Both the position numbers and the translations under genes were made by a program. The notes under the pieces were generated by a model. It saw only the letters and a program-made list of their open reading frames with translations. It had not been told where the DNA came from and searched no databases. A stretch of 36,824 bases of DNA from Embleya scabrispora DSM 41855. GTDB lineage: Bacteria; Actinomycetota; Actinomycetes; Streptomycetales; Streptomycetaceae. Positions 15,040 through 36,824 of this stretch are shown here, piece by piece. The stretch lies in contig NZ_KB889721.1 in the NCBI RefSeq assembly GCF_000372745.1, forward strand, positions 1 through 36,824, in the 5' to 3' direction. Each line of letters opens with the position of its first letter. Position 1 is the stretch's first letter.

Positions 15040-16305
15040 CTACATTCGCGACATGGTCAGCAGGTCGCCGCTTCCGTAGCCCGGGATCACCTGCTCGTAT
15101 GTCTCGTACGCGTTCGTGACGTCGAAGATGCGCGGATTGTCGAACTGCACATACAGCGTGCGTCGGCGGGCCGGGCCGGTTGCCGCGGGGCCCGCGTGCA
15201 GGCCGCAGCCCATGTGTACGGTCACATCGCCCGGTTCGGTGGTGATGCCGACCACCGGCAGTTGCTCCCACTGGGCCGGGGTGTACTGCTCGTGCGCGAC
15301 CGTGCCCCACGAGCCGGCCAGCGCGTAGAGCTGGGAGCTGTCCTGGCTCACCGCGTCCAGCCTGATTCCCACGTGTACGCGCGGACACGTGACCGGACAA
15401 CCGCCGAGTGCGCAGTCCTTGTGCCAGGGCAGGTCCGGGATGGACAGGGGTTCGGGCGTGACGCCGAACTCCTTGAGTACGGCGATCTGTCCGGAGTCGC
15501 GGTCGGTCACCGCGACCACGTCCTGACCGGCCAGGCCGCACAACATGCGTACGGTCGGGTCGTCGGCCAGCGCGGCGATCCGCGGCGAGCGCATGCCCAG
15601 ATAGGTCAACCGGTAGGGCGCGCGCAGCCCGCCGGGCCCTTCCGCCCACAGCGATCCCCGGTCGCCCTCGCGGCACAGGCCCCGGATCCGGTCCACCTCG
15701 CCCGCCAACTCCTCGACCCGGTCCGCGTCGAAGACCTGACGCACCACCAGGTAGCCGGTGGCCCGCAGGAAATGCGCCATCTCGTCGGGGTCGTCGTGGG
15801 TGGTGAAGTCGCGGTGCAGGTCGATCGGACGATCCGCGAGGTCGCGCAGGTCCAGTGCCGCGGGGTGGTAGATCGGCGTGCCGGAGTACATGCAGCGGAT
15901 CGCCGGCTCCCACACGTCCCAGTCGGCGAACTCCCCGCGCACGAACCGCACCGCGTGCGACTCGACCAGGCCCCGGCTGGTGCGCAGTTCGTAGAGGTAG
16001 TCCTGCCACGCACCGGATTCGAGCTCGACCACCAATTCGGCGTCCGCGATCACCCCGGGCACGATCCGCACTTCGCCGCGGTCCTCGACATAGCTGTACG
16101 CCTGACCGTTCGGCATGCACAGCGCGACCGGGGCCCGGCCGGCCACGTCCCAGGCGACCCGTTCGCCCAGTCCGCCCTCCAGACGGCGCGGCAACTCCAC
16201 CCGATGGAACGATTCGAAGCACACCACCGGCCAACCCAACACACTGAACGTGCCACGCTCGGCGTCGTGCGCCGCCACCGCCGATCCCGCGCCCGCAATC
16301 CCCAT
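15040..16305 (-). CDS. SCP2-like/phytanoyl-CoA dioxygenase (PhyH) fusion, copy 1
   Basis: A 421-residue protein. Residues about 45-150 resemble a sterol-carrier/SCP2-type lipid-binding module (RIVPGVIADAELVVEL, then AWQDYLYELRTSRGL, then RGEFADWDVWEPAIRCMY). Residues about 165-421 are a Fe(II)/2-oxoglutarate PhyH-type dioxygenase with metal ligands H295-x-D297 (PWHKDCALGG) and H370 (GLHAGP), and an Arg cluster 380-382 that would bind 2-oxoglutarate. A paralogue with the same two-module layout lies at 26183-27370. ATG at 16305 is chosen for its GGAGG 8 bases upstream; an ATG at 16356 lacks one. It lies 112 bases downstream of, and in line with, the SARP gene, with SARP-type repeats in its promoter. 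Likely hydroxylates a lipid-like substrate; which one is unknown. Confidence 0.85.
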   Translation of the reverse strand: MGIAGAGSAVAAHDAERGTFSVLGWPVVCFESFHRVELPRRLEGGLGERVAWDVAGRAPVALCMPNGQAYSYVEDRGEVRIVPGVIADAELVVELESGAWQDYLYELRTSRGLVESHAVRFVRGEFADWDVWEPAIRCMYSGTPIYHPAALDLRDLADRPIDLHRDFTTHDDPDEMAHFLRATGYLVVRQVFDADRVEELAGEVDRIRGLCREGDRGSLWAEGPGGLRAPYRLTYLGMRSPRIAALADDPTVRMLCGLAGQDVVAVTDRDSGQIAVLKEFGVTPEPLSIPDLPWHKDCALGGCPVTCPRVHVGIRLDAVSQDSSQLYALAGSWGTVAHEQYTPAQWEQLPVVGITTEPGDVTVHMGCGLHAGPAATGPARRRTLYVQFDNPRIFDVTNAYETYEQVIPGYGSGDLLTMSRM

Positions 16306-21318: not shown

Positions 21319-21981
21319 GTGAGCACCATCGAATACGTCCTCCCCCTCGTGGCGCACATCGAGAAGGACGACCCGCCGGCCCGAACCGACGCCCTGGAGG
21401 CCGCGGCACGCGCGGTCCTGGTCCTGCTGGCCGACCCGAGGTCCACCGAACCCGACGGTGAATGGCACGACGTCGTCGAGGCGTGGCAGGGCCACCGCAT
21501 CCGCAAGGTGGTCCGGCGCGCCCGCGGTGGCGAGTGGCGGCGGGCGAACACGTTGCCGGGCATCACGGTTGCCCACCGCACGGCGGAGGTTCGGGTGTAC
21601 CCGCCGATTCCGCTGGACGGATGGCCCAAGGACCTGGCCAAGTTGCAGGTCTCCGGCACCGATCTGGACGAACCCGCCGCACCGCCCGCGGCCGCGCCCG
21701 GGACGCCCGTGTTGTGGCTGAACCCGACGCTGGAGATGACCGCCGGCAAGGCCATGGCGCAGGTGGGACACGGTAGTCACCTGGCGTGGCTGGGCATGGG
21801 CCCGGCCGGGCGCAAGGAATGGGCGGAGCGTGACTTCGATCTCGCCGTGCGGGTCGCCGAGCCGGCCGCGTGGCCCGCGTTGACCACGAGCGGCCGGCCC
21901 GTCGTGCGCGACGCGGGTTTCACCGAGATCGCGCCGGGTTCGTGCACGGTGGTCGCGGACGTGCCCTGGCCGACCCGCTGA
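21319..21981 (+). CDS. PTH2-type peptidyl-tRNA hydrolase family protein
   Basis: A 220-residue protein whose C-terminal 95 residues match the archaeal/eukaryotic-type Pth2 fold: E139-M-T-A-G-K144-A-M-A-Q-V-G-H (lysine and Gly-His of the active-site strand) and DAGFTEIAPGSCTVVA (198-213). Pth2 enzymes release amino acids or peptides from stalled peptidyl-tRNAs. The N-terminal 110 residues (STIEYVLPLVAHIEK, then an Arg-rich segment IRKVVRRARGGEWRRA) are an extension found in actinomycete members. GTG at 21319 is chosen because the conserved family start is STIEYVLPL; the ribosome-binding site is weak (AAGG about 12 bases upstream). An ATG at 21241 would add 26 residues without similarity. Confidence 0.82.
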   Translation: MSTIEYVLPLVAHIEKDDPPARTDALEAAARAVLVLLADPRSTEPDGEWHDVVEAWQGHRIRKVVRRARGGEWRRANTLPGITVAHRTAEVRVYPPIPLDGWPKDLAKLQVSGTDLDEPAAPPAAAPGTPVLWLNPTLEMTAGKAMAQVGHGSHLAWLGMGPAGRKEWAERDFDLAVRVAEPAAWPALTTSGRPVVRDAGFTEIAPGSCTVVADVPWPTR

Positions 21982-22320
21982 GCAGCGCTTCCGGGTCGGA
22001 CCGAACGGGTTCCACCGGGTCATCCGACGTGACTTTGTGTCACCGAGCGGGTCGGCAAAGCGAAAGAGGCTGCGCCGGGAGCGACTTTCGGCAATCCGTG
22101 TACGCTGCAACCGAGACCCGTACGTGACCGGATCGTCACTGCCCCGGCTCCCCGGGCCCACTACGGTAGGTCACAGGCCGGGCCGACCACCCGGCTCCCG
22201 AGCCACGTTTCCAGGGCCTCCCCGGATCCGTCGGCGCATCCGATGGGGGACGGGTCGCCGATCGTTGCGGGCATCCTGCGTCGCGGCTCAGGACACCATG
22301 GGCGAGGGGACTGCCGGCGC
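21982..22320. other. Intergenic region upstream of the first STAS gene
   Basis: No gene is supported. TACGCT (22101-22106) and TACGGT (22162-22167) are possible plus-strand -10 boxes, neither with a convincing -35. The STAS frame stays open from 22243, but those extra residues are not family-like, so this is treated as leader. Confidence 0.35.
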
Positions 22321-22701
22321 GTGACTCTTCAGGTGATCAAGGACGATCTCCAGGGCTGGACCGTGCTGCACGTGCTCGGGGAGGTCGACTACGCGGTCGT
22401 CCCGGAGCTGCGCGAACACGTCAGACGCGCGGTCGCCGACGGCGACCACCGGATCGTCCTCGAACTCACCAAGGTGGAATTCCTCGACTCCACCGGCATC
22501 GGCACCCTGGTCGCCGCCCGTCGCCTGCTCCGCTCCACCGGCGGCACCCTGCGGCTGGTCATGCCCAGCAACAACGACCACCACGTCAACCGCGTCTTCA
22601 CCGCCCTCGGCCTGCGCCGCCTCTTCGACGTGCACCCGGACCTGGACGAAGCCCTGTGCGACGACGTCGCGACGGACGAGGACCTGAGCGCCGCGGGCTG
22701 A
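22321..22701 (+). CDS. STAS-domain anti-sigma-factor antagonist
   Basis: A 126-residue single-domain STAS protein (SpoIIAA/RsbV type). Strand GWTVLHVLGEVDYAVVPEL leads to the phosphorylation helix E53-F-L-D56-S57-T-G-I-G-T-L; Ser57 is the predicted site phosphorylated by an anti-sigma kinase and dephosphorylated by a PP2C phosphatase. The GTG at 22321 gives a family-length protein; GAGGGGA lies 10-12 bases upstream, a loose ribosome-binding site, so the start could be up to 26 codons earlier. The gene converges on the B12-binding/PP2C operon with only 40 bases between stops, and a second STAS gene lies on the other side of that operon. No partner kinase is in the window. Confidence 0.88.
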   Translation: MTLQVIKDDLQGWTVLHVLGEVDYAVVPELREHVRRAVADGDHRIVLELTKVEFLDSTGIGTLVAARRLLRSTGGTLRLVMPSNNDHHVNRVFTALGLRRLFDVHPDLDEALCDDVATDEDLSAAG

Positions 22702-22741
22702 CCCACCGCGGGACACCGGCCGAGTCCCCGAAACGGGTCCG

Positions 22742-23737
22742 CTACAGCACCGCCCCCGCCATCCGCAGCGTGGCGCCCGCCCCCGGGACGTGCGCCAGGC
22801 GGGCGGCGAAGGCGCGGTAGGCCGCGGCGAGGGCCTGCCTCGGGACGTGGCGGTGGGTCAGGACGTCGGCGAACCACCGGGTGAAGTCGACGAACAGGAC
22901 GTGGTCGTCGAGAAAGAGCGAGACCGCGAGCGTGTCGACGGCGGTCACCAGGCCATCCCGCAGTGTGGTCTCCGAGCGCTCGTCCTCGATCGGGACCATG
23001 GCCGCCATGCCCGCCGCGACCAGCGGGGTGCGCAGCAGCGCGACGCCGTCGTGGGTGGCGTCCGGAAGATGGCGCAGCCGAGGGGCCGGGGTGGTGATCG
23101 TGGGCCAGTCCGGGCCGGCCAGCATGTCGGCGGCCTGACGGGCATCCCGCGCCCAGCCGTTCGCGCCCACCATGCCCGCCCACCGGCCGTCCGGACCGAA
23201 GCCCGGGCCGCCGACCAGGACCGGTACGCCGACCCGCCGGGCCACCTCGACCATCGCCCGCGCGCCCGGCAGCGCGGTGGAGACCATACAGCCGATCGCG
23301 ACCGAATCCGCCTCCGAATCGGGCAACATGCGGGCCAGTTCGCCCGCGCCGGTGCCGGGCGGCAGGACCATCGCCTCGATGCCGCGCACCCGCAACAGGG
23401 CGGCCAGGATCGTGGACGCCAGCCCGTGCCAGTCACCCTGCGCGCAGCAGACCACGATCCGGGACGCGGAACTCGGCCGCGGCGTCGCGTCCGCGATCAG
23501 GTGTACCACCCGGCCGGTGACGTGCGAGGCGCCGTGTTCGCGCGCCACGGTCCACTCGCCGGTCGCCCATCGCTCGCCCACCGCGCGCAGCGCCGGGATC
23601 ACCAGGTCGGTCAACACCTCGTCGCCGGGCACCCCCTTGCCGAGCAGGTTTCGGACCAGGGTCAGTGCCCCGACCTCGTCCGTCCGTCCGATGTGCGCGA
23701 GGAACAGGTCGAGCTCGTCGGAGACCACGTGCGTCAT
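22742..23737 (-). CDS. Stand-alone cobalamin-binding protein with CarH-like photosensory signature
   Basis: A 331-residue protein with three parts. Residues 8-85 are the four-helix B12-capping bundle and contain W57-A-T-G-E-W-T-V64-A-R-E67-H68, exactly the W-x9-E-H signature (with Val at +7) of adenosylcobalamin photoreceptors CarH/LitR. The His next to Trp in Thermus CarH (upper light-state ligand) is Ala58 here. Residues 92-207 are a Rossmann B12-binding domain with D102-W-H104-G-L-A (lower-ligand His), S153-T-A-L and V-G176-G177. Residues 225-331 are an unassigned helical domain. There is no MerR-type DNA-binding domain. Its ATG overlaps the stop of the PP2C gene (ATGA), so it is coupled to it. 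Probable sensor for the phosphatase; light response is inference. Confidence 0.85.
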   Translation of the reverse strand: MTHVVSDELDLFLAHIGRTDEVGALTLVRNLLGKGVPGDEVLTDLVIPALRAVGERWATGEWTVAREHGASHVTGRVVHLIADATPRPSSASRIVVCCAQGDWHGLASTILAALLRVRGIEAMVLPPGTGAGELARMLPDSEADSVAIGCMVSTALPGARAMVEVARRVGVPVLVGGPGFGPDGRWAGMVGANGWARDARQAADMLAGPDWPTITTPAPRLRHLPDATHDGVALLRTPLVAAGMAAMVPIEDERSETTLRDGLVTAVDTLAVSLFLDDHVLFVDFTRWFADVLTHRHVPRQALAAAYRAFAARLAHVPGAGATLRMAGAVL

Positions 23738-25464
23738 GCGCCGTCCGGGTGTTCGTCGGGAACCGGGCAGTCGAGCTCCACCAGGGTCGGCAGCGTCTCG
23801 TCGTCGTCCCGGTAGGGGATGTGAATGGCCAGCAGGACCACGTCGTCCACGACCGGGGCGTCCCCCAGACGCACCATCAGCCGCTGTTCCAGGCGTTCCA
23901 CGAGCGCGTCCACCGGCATGCCCGCGCAGGACGCCAGGTCGTGCCGCAGCGCCTGCACGCCGTATGCCTCGCCGTCCGCGTCGCGCGCCTCGGTGACCCC
24001 GTCGCTGTACAGGAGCAGCGTCGAGCCCGGCGCCAGCGCCAACTCCCGCTCGCCGAACACGGTGCCCGGGATGCCCGCGACGAGCGGGTCGGTGAACTCC
24101 ATCGCCTGCACCCGACCCGCCGGATCCATCCACAGCGGCGGCGGATGCCCGGCGCAGGTCAACCGGATCCGCGCCGAACCGTCCGGGTGCACCGAGCAGT
24201 CGCCGGTGATCGCGGTGAGTACGAGGGAGGGGTCGCCGAGGGTCATTTCCGCGTCCAGGAGCGCCATGCGGTGCGCGGGCGCGCAGCCGGCACTCGCCGC
24301 TGTGCGCAGGATCAGCAGCGAGCGTGAGCTGAACATGCCCACCGGCGTGCCGCGTCCGCATACGTCGCCGATCGAGAACGCCCAGGTGCCGTCGACCGGG
24401 GTCGGGTGCACGGCGTAGAAGTCGCCGCCGAGGCCGTCGGTCAGCGCGACGGGCCGATAGCGGGCGGCGATCCGCGCGCCGGGCACCTCCGGCAGCGGGC
24501 CGGGCACCAGCGCCTGGGCCAACAGCATGGTGCGCCGGTCCTGTTCGACATACAACCGCGAGGTGCGCAGCGCGATACCCACCCGCTCGGCGTAGTCGAC
24601 GGCGAGCGAGATCTCCTCCTCGGTGAACGGGTCCGAGGTCGCCGAGCGCACGAACGTCAGTACGGAGGGCGCGTCGTCGTCGGTGGGCACCGGAACCACC
24701 AGCGCACAACGGGCGTCCACGGCGACCAGATCCGCGACCGCCTCGTCCGGTACCAGTCGGGCGAGCAACGCCTGGTCCATCAACGGGTGCAACTCCTGCC
24801 GTCGGGTGCGCAACACTCGGCCGACCCCGGCCGGCGCGGTCCACGCGGAGCCCAGCCCACTGGTCACCCGGGCGATCGGGGTGCCGGTGGCGGGCGCGTA
24901 CGTGGTGCGCAGCCGGCCGTCCTCCATGCTCGGCACGGACAGCGCCACCCAGTCGGCCAGTTCGCGTGCCGGCAGCGTGGTCACCAGATCGGTGAGCCGG
25001 CGCGGGTGGGTGGTCGCGGACAACATGCGACCCGCCTCGGCGAGGAAGACCTTGCGCCTGCGCTCGGCCAACAGCGCGTCCTCGCGCCGCCTTTCGGCGG
25101 TGGTGTCCTGGATGTACCAGGCGTAGTGGCCGTTGCCCAGGACCGCCCGCCGACCGCGCACGCGCCGGTCGAAGAGCTCGCCCTGCCAGGAGGTGCCGGT
25201 CGCGGGCGGTATCGGATGGGCCGTGCCCACGGCGCAATCCGGCAGCAGCCGCTCCGCCGCCGCGTTGAGGTAGCACACGGTGCCCTCGGGCGTGAAGACG
25301 ACCACGCCGGTGTCGCTGTGTTCGAGTACCTCGCCCGGCGACCACATGGGTGGCGCGGGCTCGTCCGGGACGCGCGGCGGTTTGAAGCCGTTGGTCCGCC
25401 GCTCGGCGGCCGGCTCCTGGGTGTTGCTGCCCCGCTCGTCGCCGGAGGGGTGTTGTCCGGTCAT
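23734..25464 (-). CDS. PAS-GAF-PP2C (SpoIIE/RsbU-type) serine phosphatase
   Basis: A 576-residue phosphatase. Residues about 41-125 are a PAS domain (VLEHSDTGVVVFTPEGTVCY), 137-305 a GAF domain, and 320-550 the SpoIIE-type PP2C domain. Metal-binding aspartates are D348 (GLGGDFY), D367 (SIGDVCGRG), D488 (LLYSDGVTEA) and D540/D541 (VVDDVVLL). The usual second Asp of the GGDxYD motif is Ala351, a deviation that may alter metal binding. Such enzymes dephosphorylate STAS antagonists in partner-switching cascades, and STAS genes flank this operon. Start: ATG 25464 with AAGGGA 10 bases upstream; ATG 25530 would add 22 residues. First gene of the operon; overlaps the cobalamin protein by 4 bases. Confidence 0.9.
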   Translation of the reverse strand: MTGQHPSGDERGSNTQEPAAERRTNGFKPPRVPDEPAPPMWSPGEVLEHSDTGVVVFTPEGTVCYLNAAAERLLPDCAVGTAHPIPPATGTSWQGELFDRRVRGRRAVLGNGHYAWYIQDTTAERRREDALLAERRRKVFLAEAGRMLSATTHPRRLTDLVTTLPARELADWVALSVPSMEDGRLRTTYAPATGTPIARVTSGLGSAWTAPAGVGRVLRTRRQELHPLMDQALLARLVPDEAVADLVAVDARCALVVPVPTDDDAPSVLTFVRSATSDPFTEEEISLAVDYAERVGIALRTSRLYVEQDRRTMLLAQALVPGPLPEVPGARIAARYRPVALTDGLGGDFYAVHPTPVDGTWAFSIGDVCGRGTPVGMFSSRSLLILRTAASAGCAPAHRMALLDAEMTLGDPSLVLTAITGDCSVHPDGSARIRLTCAGHPPPLWMDPAGRVQAMEFTDPLVAGIPGTVFGERELALAPGSTLLLYSDGVTEARDADGEAYGVQALRHDLASCAGMPVDALVERLEQRLMVRLGDAPVVDDVVLLAIHIPYRDDDETLPTLVELDCPVPDEHPDGA

Positions 25465-25693
25465 GGCTACGGAATCCCTTGCGTCCGTGCGTTTCGAGCC
25501 GGCTCGCGCCGGCGCTCGCGCAACCTTCACGGTACGACCGGAAACATCGCCCGGGTGCGGGTTCCGCCGGAATCACACCTATAGGGGAAGACGGTCCACG
25601 AGGGGTCGATGCGACGAGTAGGGTGCCGATGAGGTCGTGTCGTTTCCGGGCGGGATGAGCAGATTCCTCCCGAGACGTGCGTACCGTACCGAG

Positions 25694-25714
25694 CGGTCGC
25701 GCACCACGCGACCG
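25694..25714 (+). promoter_or_regulatory. 8-bp perfect inverted repeat upstream of the second STAS gene
   Basis: CGGTCGCG (25694-25701) and CGCGACCG (25707-25714) with a 5-base spacer, in the divergent region between the PP2C operon and the STAS gene. It may be an operator or, if transcribed, a leader hairpin. Confidence 0.45.
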
Positions 25715-25731
25715 AACCGACACTTGATCAG

Positions 25732-25745
25732 GTGGAGTGCTCCAC
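25732..25745 (+). promoter_or_regulatory. Ribosome-binding site inside a short hairpin, second STAS gene
   Basis: GTGGAGTGCTCCAC at 25732-25745 ends next to the ATG at 25746. GTGGA and TCCAC pair around a GTGC loop, enclosing the GGAG ribosome-binding site, so folding would hide it. A translational on/off role is inferred. Confidence 0.4.
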
Positions 25746-26141
25746 ATGAGCCTTGACGATCTCCCACCGGACGACGTCGATCACACATCGGTCTCGGCCA
25801 GGCCGTGCGTCGTGCACATCACGCTGGAACCCGACCTCGGCGGCACGGTGTCCGTGCGGGGTGACATGGACATGACGGCCGCGCCGGTGTTCCGGCAGGC
25901 GGTGGACCGCCTCGTCGACGAGGGCGCACGCAGCCTGCGGATCGACCTCTCGGGCGTGTCGTTCATCGACTCGTCCGGCCTGGGCAGCCTGGTGTACGGC
26001 TACCGCCGATTGCGCGACCGCGACGGCGACATCGTGGTCTGCGGCGTCGGCCCGCAGCCCGCGCGCGTGCTGCGGATCACCCATTTGGACCGCATCCTCA
26101 GCGTGGAAGCCGCGGCCGTCCCCGCCGCACCGCGCCGCTGA
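25746..26141 (+). CDS. STAS-domain anti-sigma-factor antagonist
   Basis: A 131-residue STAS protein with a 20-residue acidic N-terminal extension. The core runs from VVHITLEPDLGGTVSVRGDMD through S72-F-I-D75-S76-S-G-L-G-S-L; Ser76, following Asp75, is the predicted phospho-switch. ATG at 25746 is preferred over the in-frame GTG at 25737 because GGAG precedes it by 8 bases. It is divergent from the PP2C/cobalamin operon (282 bases between starts) and converges on the second PhyH fusion gene 41 bases away. Together with the STAS gene at 22321 it brackets the operon, consistent with being a substrate of the phosphatase. Confidence 0.9.
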   Translation: MSLDDLPPDDVDHTSVSARPCVVHITLEPDLGGTVSVRGDMDMTAAPVFRQAVDRLVDEGARSLRIDLSGVSFIDSSGLGSLVYGYRRLRDRDGDIVVCGVGPQPARVLRITHLDRILSVEAAAVPAAPRR

Positions 26142-26182
26142 GCGCAGGCCGCCGCGGATCCGGCCGCAGCCGACCACCGGGC

Positions 26183-27370
26183 TCAACGCCCCAGCCCGGC
26201 CTCCAATTCGCCCGCGGTACGACTGCGGATCAGGTCGTTGACCGCCTCGCCCGGACCGACGTGCTCGAACAGGGTCGGCGGATGGAAGGTGACGTACATC
26301 GTGCGTCGCCCACCCTCACCCGCGGGCGCGGGGGAGGCGTGCAGCACGTCCGTCATGTGCACCGTCACATCGCCCGGGTCGGTGGGCACCGTCAGGTGCG
26401 GCAGTTCGGCCAACTCGGCGGCACTCGGCTGCGGGCAGGTGCGGCCCTGTGAGCCCGGGATCGCCTCCAGGTAGCCGTTCTCGGCGGAGGAGCCGGTCAG
26501 TTGGATGCCGATGGCCACCGACGGGCACATGATGTGATGGCCACCGAGCCCGCAGTCGGTGTGCCACGGGATGTTCGCCAGGCCCTTGAGCCGACCGGGT
26601 GGCTTGAGCAGGACCGAGATCCCCTCCATCCGGTCGGTCGACGCCGCGAGGCCCTCGTGCACCAGCGTGGCCAACCGAACCAGGCGCGGATCGTGGGCCA
26701 GTGCGCCGATCGGCGCCGAGCGCTCGCTCGCGTACACGATCCTGCACAACACCTGCTCGCCGCTTTCGCGCTCCGCCCACCAGGACCGATCGTCATCCGG
26801 CCGGGCCTCGGCGGCGAGCCGATCCACCTCGGCCTCGAAGACGGCGATCTCGGCGGCGGAGAACACCCCGCGCACCCGCATCACCCCGGTTGCCTCGAAG
26901 TGATCGGCGAGTTCACGATCCGAGTGATCGAGCGTCAGTTCGGCAGCCGGGTCCACCGATCGACCCTGCCGATCGAAGACCTCCCTGCCGTGCGGGAGAT
27001 AGATCTCGATATTCTGATAGAGCGCGCGCAGCACCGGCTCCCACCGGAACAGGTCGTGCACTGTGCCACGTTCGACGTGCACCTCACCCGCGATGGCGAG
27101 CGCCGCCGCGGTGCGCAGCAGGGTGACCAGGTCGGTCCAGGCGTCGGGGGACAACCGCACCACGCATGTGGCGTCCGCGTCGATCCCCTCCACGATCCGC
27201 AACCGGGAGTCGTGCGCACGATACGTCCACGCCCCCTCGCCGATCCGCATGCCGAGCGGATCAAGCCCGGGCAGCCCCGCCTCGGCCCGTTTGCCGGGCT
27301 CCCCGATGAGCAATCCCGGGACGATGTCCCGATGGTACGTTTCCGCGTCGATCCGGTCGTGCCCGAGCAT
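26183..27370 (-). CDS. SCP2-like/phytanoyl-CoA dioxygenase (PhyH) fusion, copy 2
   Basis: A 395-residue paralogue of the protein at 15040-16305 with the same two modules. The N-terminal SCP2-like part has RIVEGIDADATCVVRL (58-73), AWTDLVTLLRT (77-87) and RGTVHDLFRWEPVLRALY (101-118), aligning without large gaps to copy 1. The dioxygenase part has H270-T-D272 (IPWHTDCGLGG), H344 (DVLHASPAP) and Arg355/356, a full Fe(II) and 2-oxoglutarate site. ATG at 27370 has AGGAGG 8 bases upstream. It stands alone, between the second STAS gene and the GntR regulator. Unlike copy 1 no SARP-type 11-bp repeats were found in its promoter. Substrate unknown. Confidence 0.85.
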   Translation of the reverse strand: MLGHDRIDAETYHRDIVPGLLIGEPGKRAEAGLPGLDPLGMRIGEGAWTYRAHDSRLRIVEGIDADATCVVRLSPDAWTDLVTLLRTAAALAIAGEVHVERGTVHDLFRWEPVLRALYQNIEIYLPHGREVFDRQGRSVDPAAELTLDHSDRELADHFEATGVMRVRGVFSAAEIAVFEAEVDRLAAEARPDDDRSWWAERESGEQVLCRIVYASERSAPIGALAHDPRLVRLATLVHEGLAASTDRMEGISVLLKPPGRLKGLANIPWHTDCGLGGHHIMCPSVAIGIQLTGSSAENGYLEAIPGSQGRTCPQPSAAELAELPHLTVPTDPGDVTVHMTDVLHASPAPAGEGGRRTMYVTFHPPTLFEHVGPGEAVNDLIRSRTAGELEAGLGR

Positions 27371-34520: not shown

Positions 34521-36007
34521 GCCCGGGCTCGAACCCGGGCTCGGGGGCCGCCTCCGCCGGGGACGGGTCGGCACGTGCGCGTACGGCCGGTCGGGCGCAG
34601 GCTTCGGGAGGTCGGGCGGGCAAGCCGCCCCGGGCGCCCAAGGGGGTGCGGGGCACGCTGGTGTGGGTCTCGCTGGCGGTCACCACGATGGTCGCGCTGG
34701 CCTTTTTGATTCCGCTGGTTCTGGTGATCCGGGAGATCGCGGCGGACCGTGCCTTCACCGACGCCGAGCGGCAGGCCGCCGCGTTGCAGCCGGCGCTGGT
34801 GATCACCACCGACCGGGCGACGCTGGAGCCGGCGATCGCGAGTGTGCCGGCCGGTTCCAGTGGCCGGATCGCGATCCATCTGCCGGACGGCTCGGTACTG
34901 GGGCGCCCGCGGGCGAGCGATCACAGCGTGGCCACCGCGCGCGGGTCGGCCCGTTCGTTCCGGGTCCGGGCGGGCGGCGGATGGGCGTTGTTGCAACCGC
35001 TGCTGTTGGACCAGGGGCGGATCACCGTGGTCGAGGTGTACGTCCCGGACGGCGAACTGGAGCACGGCGTCAATACCGCCTGGATGGTGCTCACCGGCGT
35101 GGCGGTGCTCCTGGTCGGCGGCTCCGTGGTGGTCGCGGACCGACTCGGCGCACAGGTGGTGCGCTCGGCGCGGGGCCTGGCCTCGGCGGCCCGGGCGCTG
35201 GGTACCGGCGACCTGGCGGCCAGGATCGCGCCGCAGGGCCCCTCCGAACTCCATGAGGCTGCCACGTCGTTCAACACGATGGCGGATCGGGTGGAGCAAC
35301 TGCTGGCCAACGAGCGGGAGATGGCCGCCGACCTGTCGCATCGACTGCGCACGCCGCTCACCGCGCTGCGGCTGAACGCGGCGGCGCTGGGCGAGGACCC
35401 GGTGGCCGAGCAGACCCGGAACGCGGTGGCGCAGCTGGAGCGCGAGGTCGACGAACTGATCCGAACGGCGCGGCGATCGAGCGCGAGCATCGAGGCGGTG
35501 GGTTGCGATGCGGCCGAAGTGGTCCGCGAGCGGATGGACTTCTGGTCGGCGCTGGCCGAGGACGAGGACCGACCGTGGCAACTGGTGGGCGCGGATCAGC
35601 CGGTGCGGGTGCCGGTGCCGCGGGGCGAACTGGCGGCCGGGCTCGACGCGATGCTGGGCAACGTGTTCCGGCACACCGAGGAGGGCGCGCCGTTCTCGGT
35701 CACCCTGCACTCCGGCCGGGACACGGTGATCCTGCTCGTGGCCGACGGCGGCCCGGGAATCGCCGACCCGGAGAGCGCGCTGCGGCGCGGACACGGGCAG
35801 GGCGGCGACGGCTCCACGGGACTGGGGCTGGACATCGTCCGACGCCTCGCGGAGGCCACGGGCGGGGAGGTCGGGTTGGGGCGGTCGGTGCTGGGCGGCG
35901 CGGAGATCAGCGTGCGACTGGGCGGCGGGCGTACGGAGGCGGTCGTCCGACGGAGCCGGCGGGCGGGGAAGGGGGGTCGCGGTCGGCGACGGATGGGGGT
36001 GGGGTGA
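34517..36007 (+). CDS. Sensor histidine kinase
   Basis: A 496-residue membrane kinase partnered with the upstream response regulator. A 45-residue basic N-terminal tail precedes TM1 (48-72); the extracytoplasmic sensor is about 73-186; TM2 is 187-207; HAMP 208-260; HisKA with H275 (DLSHRLRTPLTALR); HATPase_c with N382 (NVFRHT), D410-G-G-P-G-I and G-S-T-G-L-G-L (432-438). All kinase boxes look functional. GTG at 34517 overlaps the regulator stop. The end (470-496) is Arg/Gly-rich and runs into low-complexity DNA. Signal unknown. Confidence 0.93.
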   Translation: MSPGSNPGSGAASAGDGSARARTAGRAQASGGRAGKPPRAPKGVRGTLVWVSLAVTTMVALAFLIPLVLVIREIAADRAFTDAERQAAALQPALVITTDRATLEPAIASVPAGSSGRIAIHLPDGSVLGRPRASDHSVATARGSARSFRVRAGGGWALLQPLLLDQGRITVVEVYVPDGELEHGVNTAWMVLTGVAVLLVGGSVVVADRLGAQVVRSARGLASAARALGTGDLAARIAPQGPSELHEAATSFNTMADRVEQLLANEREMAADLSHRLRTPLTALRLNAAALGEDPVAEQTRNAVAQLEREVDELIRTARRSSASIEAVGCDAAEVVRERMDFWSALAEDEDRPWQLVGADQPVRVPVPRGELAAGLDAMLGNVFRHTEEGAPFSVTLHSGRDTVILLVADGGPGIADPESALRRGHGQGGDGSTGLGLDIVRRLAEATGGEVGLGRSVLGGAEISVRLGGGRTEAVVRRSRRAGKGGRGRRRMGVG

Positions 36008-36816: not shown

Positions 36817-36824
36817 TCGGGACT

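Follow-up and report, generated by a model that had tools for sequence, protein, structure and literature searches.

A photocobilin-family protein paired with a SpoIIE-type phosphatase in Embleya: candidate cobalamin- or light-dependent control of a STAS protein

What would a cobalamin-binding protein regulate if it lacks a DNA-binding domain, its gene overlaps the gene for a serine/threonine phosphatase, and a gene for a STAS protein lies on each side? This question is raised by a stretch of 36,824 nucleotides from Embleya scabrispora DSM 41855 (contig NZ_KB889721.1), which we will call the window and which is an entire contig (it ends at 36824) of an 11.39 Mb draft genome. An earlier note on this DNA, made from the sequence alone, proposed that a B12 sensor, possibly of light, acts on a PP2C phosphatase whose targets are the STAS proteins. 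We think that the best explanation of the locus is that the state of cobalamin, or light, controls the phosphatase, which would in turn feed a STAS protein, and we give this reading a probability of about 0.6. That the sensor and the phosphatase form a functional pair we hardly doubt.

We called genes with our own script, which found 29 in the window. The features that matter here are:

22321-22701, plus strand: STAS-1, 126 amino acids, starting with GTG at 22321 (or at 22333 in our own gene call); Pfam STAS (E = 1.1e-19) and NCBIfam ant_ant_sig above its cut-off; convergent to the photocobilin gene, with Ser57 (DSTG) as the candidate phosphosite.
22742-23737, minus strand: photocobilin-family protein (the B12 protein), 331 amino acids; Pfam B12-binding and B12-binding_2.
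23734-25464, minus strand: SpoIIE-type PP2C Ser/Thr phosphatase, 576 amino acids, the first gene of the operon; Pfam SpoIIE.
25465-25745, no strand: intergenic region that separates the phosphatase operon from the divergent STAS-2 gene, presumed to be a promoter region.
25746-26141, plus strand: STAS-2, 131 amino acids, divergent from the phosphatase; Pfam STAS and STAS_2 and NCBIfam ant_ant_sig above its cut-off; candidate phosphosite Ser76 (DSSG).

The four open reading frames that the note had placed between 22321 and 26141 (STAS, B12-binding, phosphatase, STAS) keep their coordinates. The TGA of the phosphatase and the ATG of the B12 gene share the bases ATGA, and because of this 4-base overlap, the translational coupling that the note had asserted is plausible. 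A STAS gene does lie on each side of the pair, but both are on the strand opposite to the operon (STAS-2 divergent over a 281-base gap and STAS-1 convergent), so they lie outside the phosphatase/B12 transcript.

What kind of protein is the sensor? Pfam finds only two B12-binding domains, both inside the first 202 residues. When compared with solved structures by phmmer, the protein matches the photocobilins SasPcob of Saccharothrix syringae (8j2x and 8j2w; E = 3e-52) and AbPcob (8j2y; E = 4e-44) best, with CarH-type proteins far behind (about 1e-11). The AlphaFold2 model, which has a mean predicted local distance difference test (pLDDT) score of 91.3 and an all-helical C-terminal domain, tells the same story: Foldseek ranks 1-5 are chains of these photocobilins (8j2x/8j2w/8j2y), matched end to end with template-modelling (TM) scores of 0.85-0.88 by query length, while CarH-type chains align over just about 200 columns. 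The architecture would be an N-terminal four-helix domain and a Rossmann B12-binding domain, followed by a C-terminal globin (“photoglobin”) at about residues 226-330, as expected of a photocobilin. Because the best sequence matches and the top fold matches are photocobilin structures, we assign the B12 protein to the photocobilin family, of which it is, by homology and modelled fold, a diverged member. We had also considered an entirely new kind of B12 sensor, and we reject this, as the protein is a homologue of SasPcob and AbPcob.

The note was right that the protein has no DNA-binding domain: there is no MerR-type match in Pfam, and the NCBIfam model for CarH gives 60.3 bits against a cut-off of 400. 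It took the photoreceptors CarH and LitR as the comparison, and these do have the B12-binding core and the ligand residues in common with the Embleya protein. Unlike them, however, the Embleya protein lacks the MerR domain, has an extra globin, and presumably has an enzyme rather than DNA as its partner. Given its place in a characterised family with a C-terminal globin, SasPcob and AbDPcob (whose photocobilin part is PDB 8J2Y) are the better comparison. SasPcob (PDB 8J2W/8J2X) is the same stand-alone combination of B12 domains and globin, with the same cobalt-ligand His, Trp, and Glu-His, although the two proteins are just 36% identical in the fold alignment. SasPcob binds adenosylcobalamin (AdoCbl) as well as biliverdin, the latter in the globin, and the conversion of its B12 by light alters its quaternary structure (Zhang et al. 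2024, PMC10979010). The source genome has Pfam matches for heme oxygenase and for cobalamin adenosyltransferase. All four of the Embleya genomes that we searched, including the source genome, have the photocobilin gene, and the relative from Embleya hyalina NBRC 13850 is 83% identical over its best segment. Two of the other Embleya genomes (L058 and L060) also carry a second operon that is nearer to the Streptomyces type, with the order PP2C, photocobilin, STAS, PP2C; at E <= 1e-20, the window's genome has no such second operon.

The phosphatase matches Pfam SpoIIE (PF07228) with E = 3.2e-35, and its Foldseek matches include phosphatase domains of the RsbU, SpoIIE, SiaA, and RssB types. Asp348, Asp367, Asp488, and Asp541, which we take to be the metal-binding acids, are invariant in all 38 of the photocobilin-adjacent phosphatases that we aligned (out of 67). 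So the PP2C part of the note's “PAS-GAF-PP2C” label stands. The rest of the label is weakly supported: the AlphaFold2 model (pLDDT 80.7) suggests PAS-like and GAF-like N-terminal domains by secondary structure, followed by a long helix (282-318) that leads into the catalytic domain, but no fold match of these regions to PAS or GAF domains was obtained, and the GAF match in sequence (E = 0.0081) is under the Pfam cut-off. Among the 38 aligned phosphatases, 22 match GAF (PF01590) and 3 match PAS (PF00989) at E <= 0.01.

Are the two genes neighbors elsewhere? We searched for photocobilin homologues at E <= 1e-20 and found them in 22 of 396 genomes sampled over the phylum, in 111 of 297 genomes from the same family, and in 103 of 200 from the family of genome G259; these counts may be lower bounds, as only some of the first-look candidates in each genome were scored. 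To the window we added 80 regions: 20 other matches from the search that covered the Embleya genomes, 20 of 22 further matches from the phylum sample (without G354 and without the second of the G339 matches), and 20 matches hand-picked at intervals from each of the two family lists. One region (L132) was dropped because no photocobilin gene was called in it, which left 80 photocobilin genes; these loci are not phylogenetically independent. A SpoIIE gene lies directly upstream on the same strand in 67 of the 80 loci. The window belongs to a class of 69 loci that includes all 67 of these (the exceptions are L068 and L076), and none of the 11 loci outside the class has this arrangement. As a control, just 13 of 1,042 other genes in the same regions are directly preceded by a SpoIIE gene on their strand. 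The 4-base overlap recurs in 44 of the 67 pairs, as compared to 100 of 642 other same-strand pairs. So the conserved co-occurrence that the note had proposed to look for is there. In a collection of plasmids, six records had a match, five of them were annotated at the site, and PP2C is directly upstream in four of these five.

The two genes also appear to have been inherited together. Of the 116 SpoIIE domains that we placed in a tree, the 66 encoded next to a photocobilin lie on one side of a branch, and 29 paralogues from the window's genome and 21 other neighbors lie on the other. (One of the 67 adjacent domains was too short to include; the 29 paralogues are those with the best PF07228 scores, and the ten weakest matches of the genome, which have no locus, were excluded.) The tree requires a single change between adjacent and non-adjacent, against a mean of 37.7 if the labels are shuffled. 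The photocobilin-adjacent phosphatases look like one lineage, with modest support for the branch (67/69, with 67% of 200 bootstrap trees) and a long branch to Embleya. Distances in the photocobilin tree and the phosphatase tree are correlated across the 66 pairs (r = 0.91, while the best of 1,000 permutations gave 0.33), which in part reflects the history of the species. A cleaner control is to swap partners within the four genomes that have two pairs. In three of them, each phosphatase follows its own photocobilin (r = 0.91 to 0.95 if matched and -0.42 to -0.56 if swapped); among these three, G001 and G002 are closely related to each other, and the fourth genome (L064/L065) gives no information either way.

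Might the neighborhood nevertheless be due to chance or housekeeping, so that the gene of an unrelated corrinoid carrier overlaps that of a PP2C by accident, with the phosphatase sensing via its own PAS/GAF region? PP2C neighbors should be common in a genome with about 39 SpoIIE genes (40 matches, two of which are pieces of one open frame), and the phosphatase does have putative sensor regions of its own. But the B12 protein matches the photocobilin fold over its full length, there is no corrinoid methyltransferase among the Pfam matches of the 29 window genes, and chance does not account for the excess over the control, the co-inheritance, or the swap test. We consider this explanation to be very improbable and reject it.

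How might the sensor act on the phosphatase? We propose that the two proteins are co-translated as a dedicated pair and that the photocobilin, with AdoCbl (and perhaps biliverdin) bound, docks on the phosphatase. If the state of the cobalamin changed, most simply through the loss of the adenosyl group upon illumination, this would alter the dimer and raise or lower the activity of the phosphatase, plausibly via the N-terminal regions of the enzyme and the long helix ahead of the catalytic domain. The phosphatase would then dephosphorylate an anti-anti-sigma protein of the STAS type (STAS-2, STAS-1, or both), and the dephosphorylated STAS protein would capture an RsbW-type kinase and so free a sigma factor.

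There is a precedent for a photocobilin acting on a separate enzyme. Light-state AbPcob and biliverdin-loaded SasPcob activate a diguanylate cyclase in trans, as separate proteins (PMC10979010). And among the 11 loci outside the window's class, eight have a gene for a GGDEF protein directly upstream of the photocobilin gene, on the same strand. (To recognize GGDEF and RsbW-like proteins across the loci, we used small profiles that we had built locally, with L134 and L093 as the seeds, and each seed was confirmed with Pfam.) Because photocobilins act on a separate cyclase in trans, it is plausible, by analogy, that in each of the two arrangements the upstream gene encodes the enzyme that is regulated. 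Two of the eight GGDEF-like proteins (L133 and L136) have no GGDEF/GGEEF motif in the alignment and may be receptors or inactive enzymes. We looked for a docking domain common to the PP2C and GGDEF partners, and a comparison of profiles found none; nor were there any fusions of a photocobilin to an enzyme among the sampled loci.

If the pair is functional, what does the photocobilin sense? Trp57, Glu67-His68, and His104 of the Embleya protein align with Trp61, Glu71-His72, and His108 of SasPcob, and the motifs W-(10)x-EH and E/DxH are present as W57, E67-H68, and D102-W103-H104. In SasPcob, the Trp and the Glu-His touch the adenosyl group (PMC10979010). W57, E67-H68, and H104 are invariant in the 33 proteins of one alignment (A1), and in an alignment of 82 rows (the 80 photocobilin loci and two reference proteins), the Trp, Glu, and His are kept in 81 rows (L125 is gapped there) and the cobalt His in all 82. 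In the putative biliverdin pocket, Trp288 corresponds to Trp296 of SasPcob. Asp261 is aligned with the biliverdin Asp270 of SasPcob in the multiple alignment, where 74 of the 82 rows have Asp, while a pairwise alignment puts Gly262 there.

Several observations weigh against our reading, and they concern the light response, the sign of the effect, and the target. To begin with light, a published signature of light response (from SignatureFinder) consists of GxxW, EH, GxxH, and GxxxP (PMC11796333). The Embleya protein has the first three of these, but in all four Embleya proteins GxxxP is replaced by LPPGTG, while 72 of the 82 aligned rows have it. In the structure of the related CtMerR, the Pro of this motif touches AdoCbl from the neighboring monomer (PMC11796333). 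The four Embleya proteins also have an insertion of one residue right after Asp261. Because of the loss of GxxxP and the insertion after the biliverdin-Asp position, the cobalamin geometry, the light response, and the binding of biliverdin may all differ in Embleya. We note that 10 of the 82 rows do not match GxxH, so not all of these homologues carry the full signature. Since GxxxP, one of the four motifs, is absent, light sensing by the Embleya protein (the note's “possibly light”) should not be assumed from homology alone; it is plausible but not assured. If we had to choose, we would lean slightly towards light as what the protein naturally responds to in Embleya.

Alternatively, the photocobilin might report the supply of cobalamin, the identity of its upper ligand (apo, AdoCbl, methylcobalamin [MeCbl], or hydroxocobalamin [OHCbl]), or redox rather than light, and set the activity of the phosphatase in this way. 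The loss of GxxxP, which weakens the light signature while His104, Trp57, and Glu67-His68 stay, would fit with this. So would the observation that the binding of AdoCbl alone lowers the activity of AbDPcob as compared to the apo protein (PMC10979010). On the other hand, MeCbl, OHCbl, or cyanocobalamin (CNCbl) in place of AdoCbl gave no rise in the activity of AbDPcob (PMC10979010), and the residues that would contact the adenosyl group (Trp57 and Glu67-His68) are retained. Furthermore, no Rfam families, and hence no cobalamin riboswitch, were found in the window, and none of its 29 genes has a Pfam family of B12 metabolism. So we consider it quite unlikely that the protein is a sensor of cobalamin supply rather than of light.

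The sign of the proposed effect on the phosphatase is another matter. Without biliverdin, SasPcob acts on the cyclase as an activator in darkness and as an inhibitor when illuminated, which is the reverse of its effect when loaded (PMC10979010), and so the sign of the effect on the phosphatase cannot be predicted.

Which protein would the phosphatase act on? Both of the window's STAS proteins are above the cut-off of 53.45 for NCBIfam ant_ant_sig (TIGR00377), with 75.4 and 72.6 bits. The note had pointed to Ser57 of STAS-1 and Ser76 of STAS-2, and indeed both come right after the Asp of DSTG or DSSG, which is presumably where STAS proteins are phosphorylated. Across the survey, a STAS gene lies within 3 genes at 51 of the 67 loci with the phosphatase but at none of the 13 loci without it. 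A divergent upstream STAS gene at the position of STAS-2 is found in 18 loci and keeps the Ser in all of them, as do all 3 convergent STAS genes; of the 39 same-strand downstream STAS genes, 34 keep it. But 16 of the 67 phosphatase loci have no STAS gene within 3 genes, and five of the 39 downstream STAS proteins lack the Ser (one of them has Thr). Furthermore, the STAS neighbors belong to several lineages. The divergent upstream STAS genes, found in Embleya, in the family of G259, and in others, form no single group, and Embleya's STAS-1 is outside the main group of Streptomyces-type downstream STAS proteins. We had considered STAS-1 as an orthologue of that group, which the STAS tree does not support; this tree has just 86 columns, 41 of its 94 inner branches have support below 80, and its bootstrap had not settled.

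It could be, then, that the pair is functional but that the phosphatase acts on a distant STAS protein or on some other phosphoprotein. There are 18 matches to STAS (PF01740) in the source genome, and the STAS neighbors differ in position and strand as well as in lineage, in addition to being absent near some of the phosphatases. Against this, no locus without the phosphatase has a STAS gene within 3 genes. Also, both of the Embleya STAS proteins keep their Ser, and they are present in the other Embleya loci as far as the contigs extend (STAS-1 is present in both of the loci whose contig reaches that far). We think that such a target is unlikely, although we take the idea seriously, and we prefer a neighboring STAS protein as the substrate.

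RsbW-type kinases act in partner switching between the STAS protein and the sigma factor. Neither such a kinase nor a sigma factor turned up when the window's 29 called genes were scanned with Pfam, so the window does not hold a complete partner-switching module with both in the same locus. We also searched for HATPase_c_2 genome-wide, and its sole match on this contig is a two-component sensor histidine kinase (34646-36007). Elsewhere, an RsbW-like gene lies within 6 genes at 16 of the 67 loci with the phosphatase and at 1 of the 13 loci without it. So the pairing of sensor and phosphatase that the note proposed is strongly supported, while the steps from the STAS proteins to a kinase and a sigma factor are what we infer from better-known systems. 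In RsbU/SpoIIE, RsbV/SpoIIAA, and RsbW/SpoIIAB, there is the same SpoIIE-family PP2C with its metal-site acids and the same STAS protein with a phosphorylatable Ser. Unlike in those systems, the input in Embleya is presumably the photocobilin, and no gene for the kinase or the sigma factor was found among the window's 29 called genes.

The note knew of no described pathway with this wiring, but the idea is not new. Based on gene neighborhoods and STRING, Zhang et al. 2024 (PMC10979010) predicted potential interactions of SasPcob with STAS, SpoIIE, and PP2C-like phosphatases, and they suggested a role in the stress response. In the openly licensed literature, we found no experimental test of photocobilin-PP2C wiring. 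The pairing is therefore prior art as a prediction, and what is new here are the controlled counts, the lineage of phosphatases, the swap of partners within two-pair genomes, the slot for an output enzyme, and the way in which the Embleya branch has diverged. Unlike SasPcob, the Embleya locus has its STAS genes on the opposite strand, and the protein itself differs in the motif and the extra residue that we described. AbDPcob is similar in that a photocobilin controls an output enzyme, and it is activated by light in vitro (PMC10979010); its output is a fused GGDEF diguanylate cyclase, whereas the Embleya partner is a separate PP2C phosphatase from the same operon.

More speculatively, photocobilin-PP2C pairs might be a widespread route by which light gates partner switching in actinomycetes, with the output enzyme swapped in a conserved slot (enzyme, then photocobilin), and the Embleya branch might have retuned its pockets, with no GxxxP and a shifted biliverdin helix, and thereby sense different light or the state of cobalamin itself. 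We offer this combination tentatively and would not quite bet on it.

Some other features of these loci are worth recording. The intergenic region 25465-25745 has conserved blocks across the four Embleya genomes (in an alignment of the four loci), and a scan of 21950-26250 for a consensus sigma-70 promoter or a terminator gave 0 matches. The window has two PhyH-type (phytanoyl-CoA dioxygenase) genes, at 26183-27370 and 15040-16146, and the former adjoins STAS-2 in the four Embleya genomes. In eight loci (L097, L098, L099, L100, L101, L108, L109, and L117), a similar response-regulator receiver protein of about 148 amino acids (by Pfam on L098) is encoded on the same strand, right after the photocobilin or else after the STAS gene downstream of it. 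A cluster of MarR-family genes (by Pfam on L065) has a member within 4 genes of the photocobilin in 13 loci (L065, L067, L068, L073, L075, L079, L081-L084, L088, L113, and L121), and a MarR gene also comes after the downstream STAS in three named plasmids. In the plasmid record from S. xanthophaeus, the genes STAS, ATP-binding protein, and STAS are divergent from PP2C, photocobilin, and STAS. Finally, a plasmid of Streptomyces sp. SGAir0924 (L188, 3938-7907), the fifth of the annotated plasmid records, has a photocobilin-like gene with no adjacent phosphatase, on the same strand as and just before a gas-vesicle cluster, which might indicate a different output.

The structures of stand-alone photocobilins have been solved, but where PMC10979010 discusses these proteins, their function is called less clear, and a natural partner is not shown. 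Our survey points to one: the phosphatase encoded directly upstream, at nearly every locus of the window's class. If our reading is true, then light or the state of cobalamin would be tied to the release of sigma factors in a group of bacteria that is known for development and secondary metabolism, and the pair would be a natural light-switched phosphatase. The diverged branch in Embleya would help to reveal which residues of the pockets are required.

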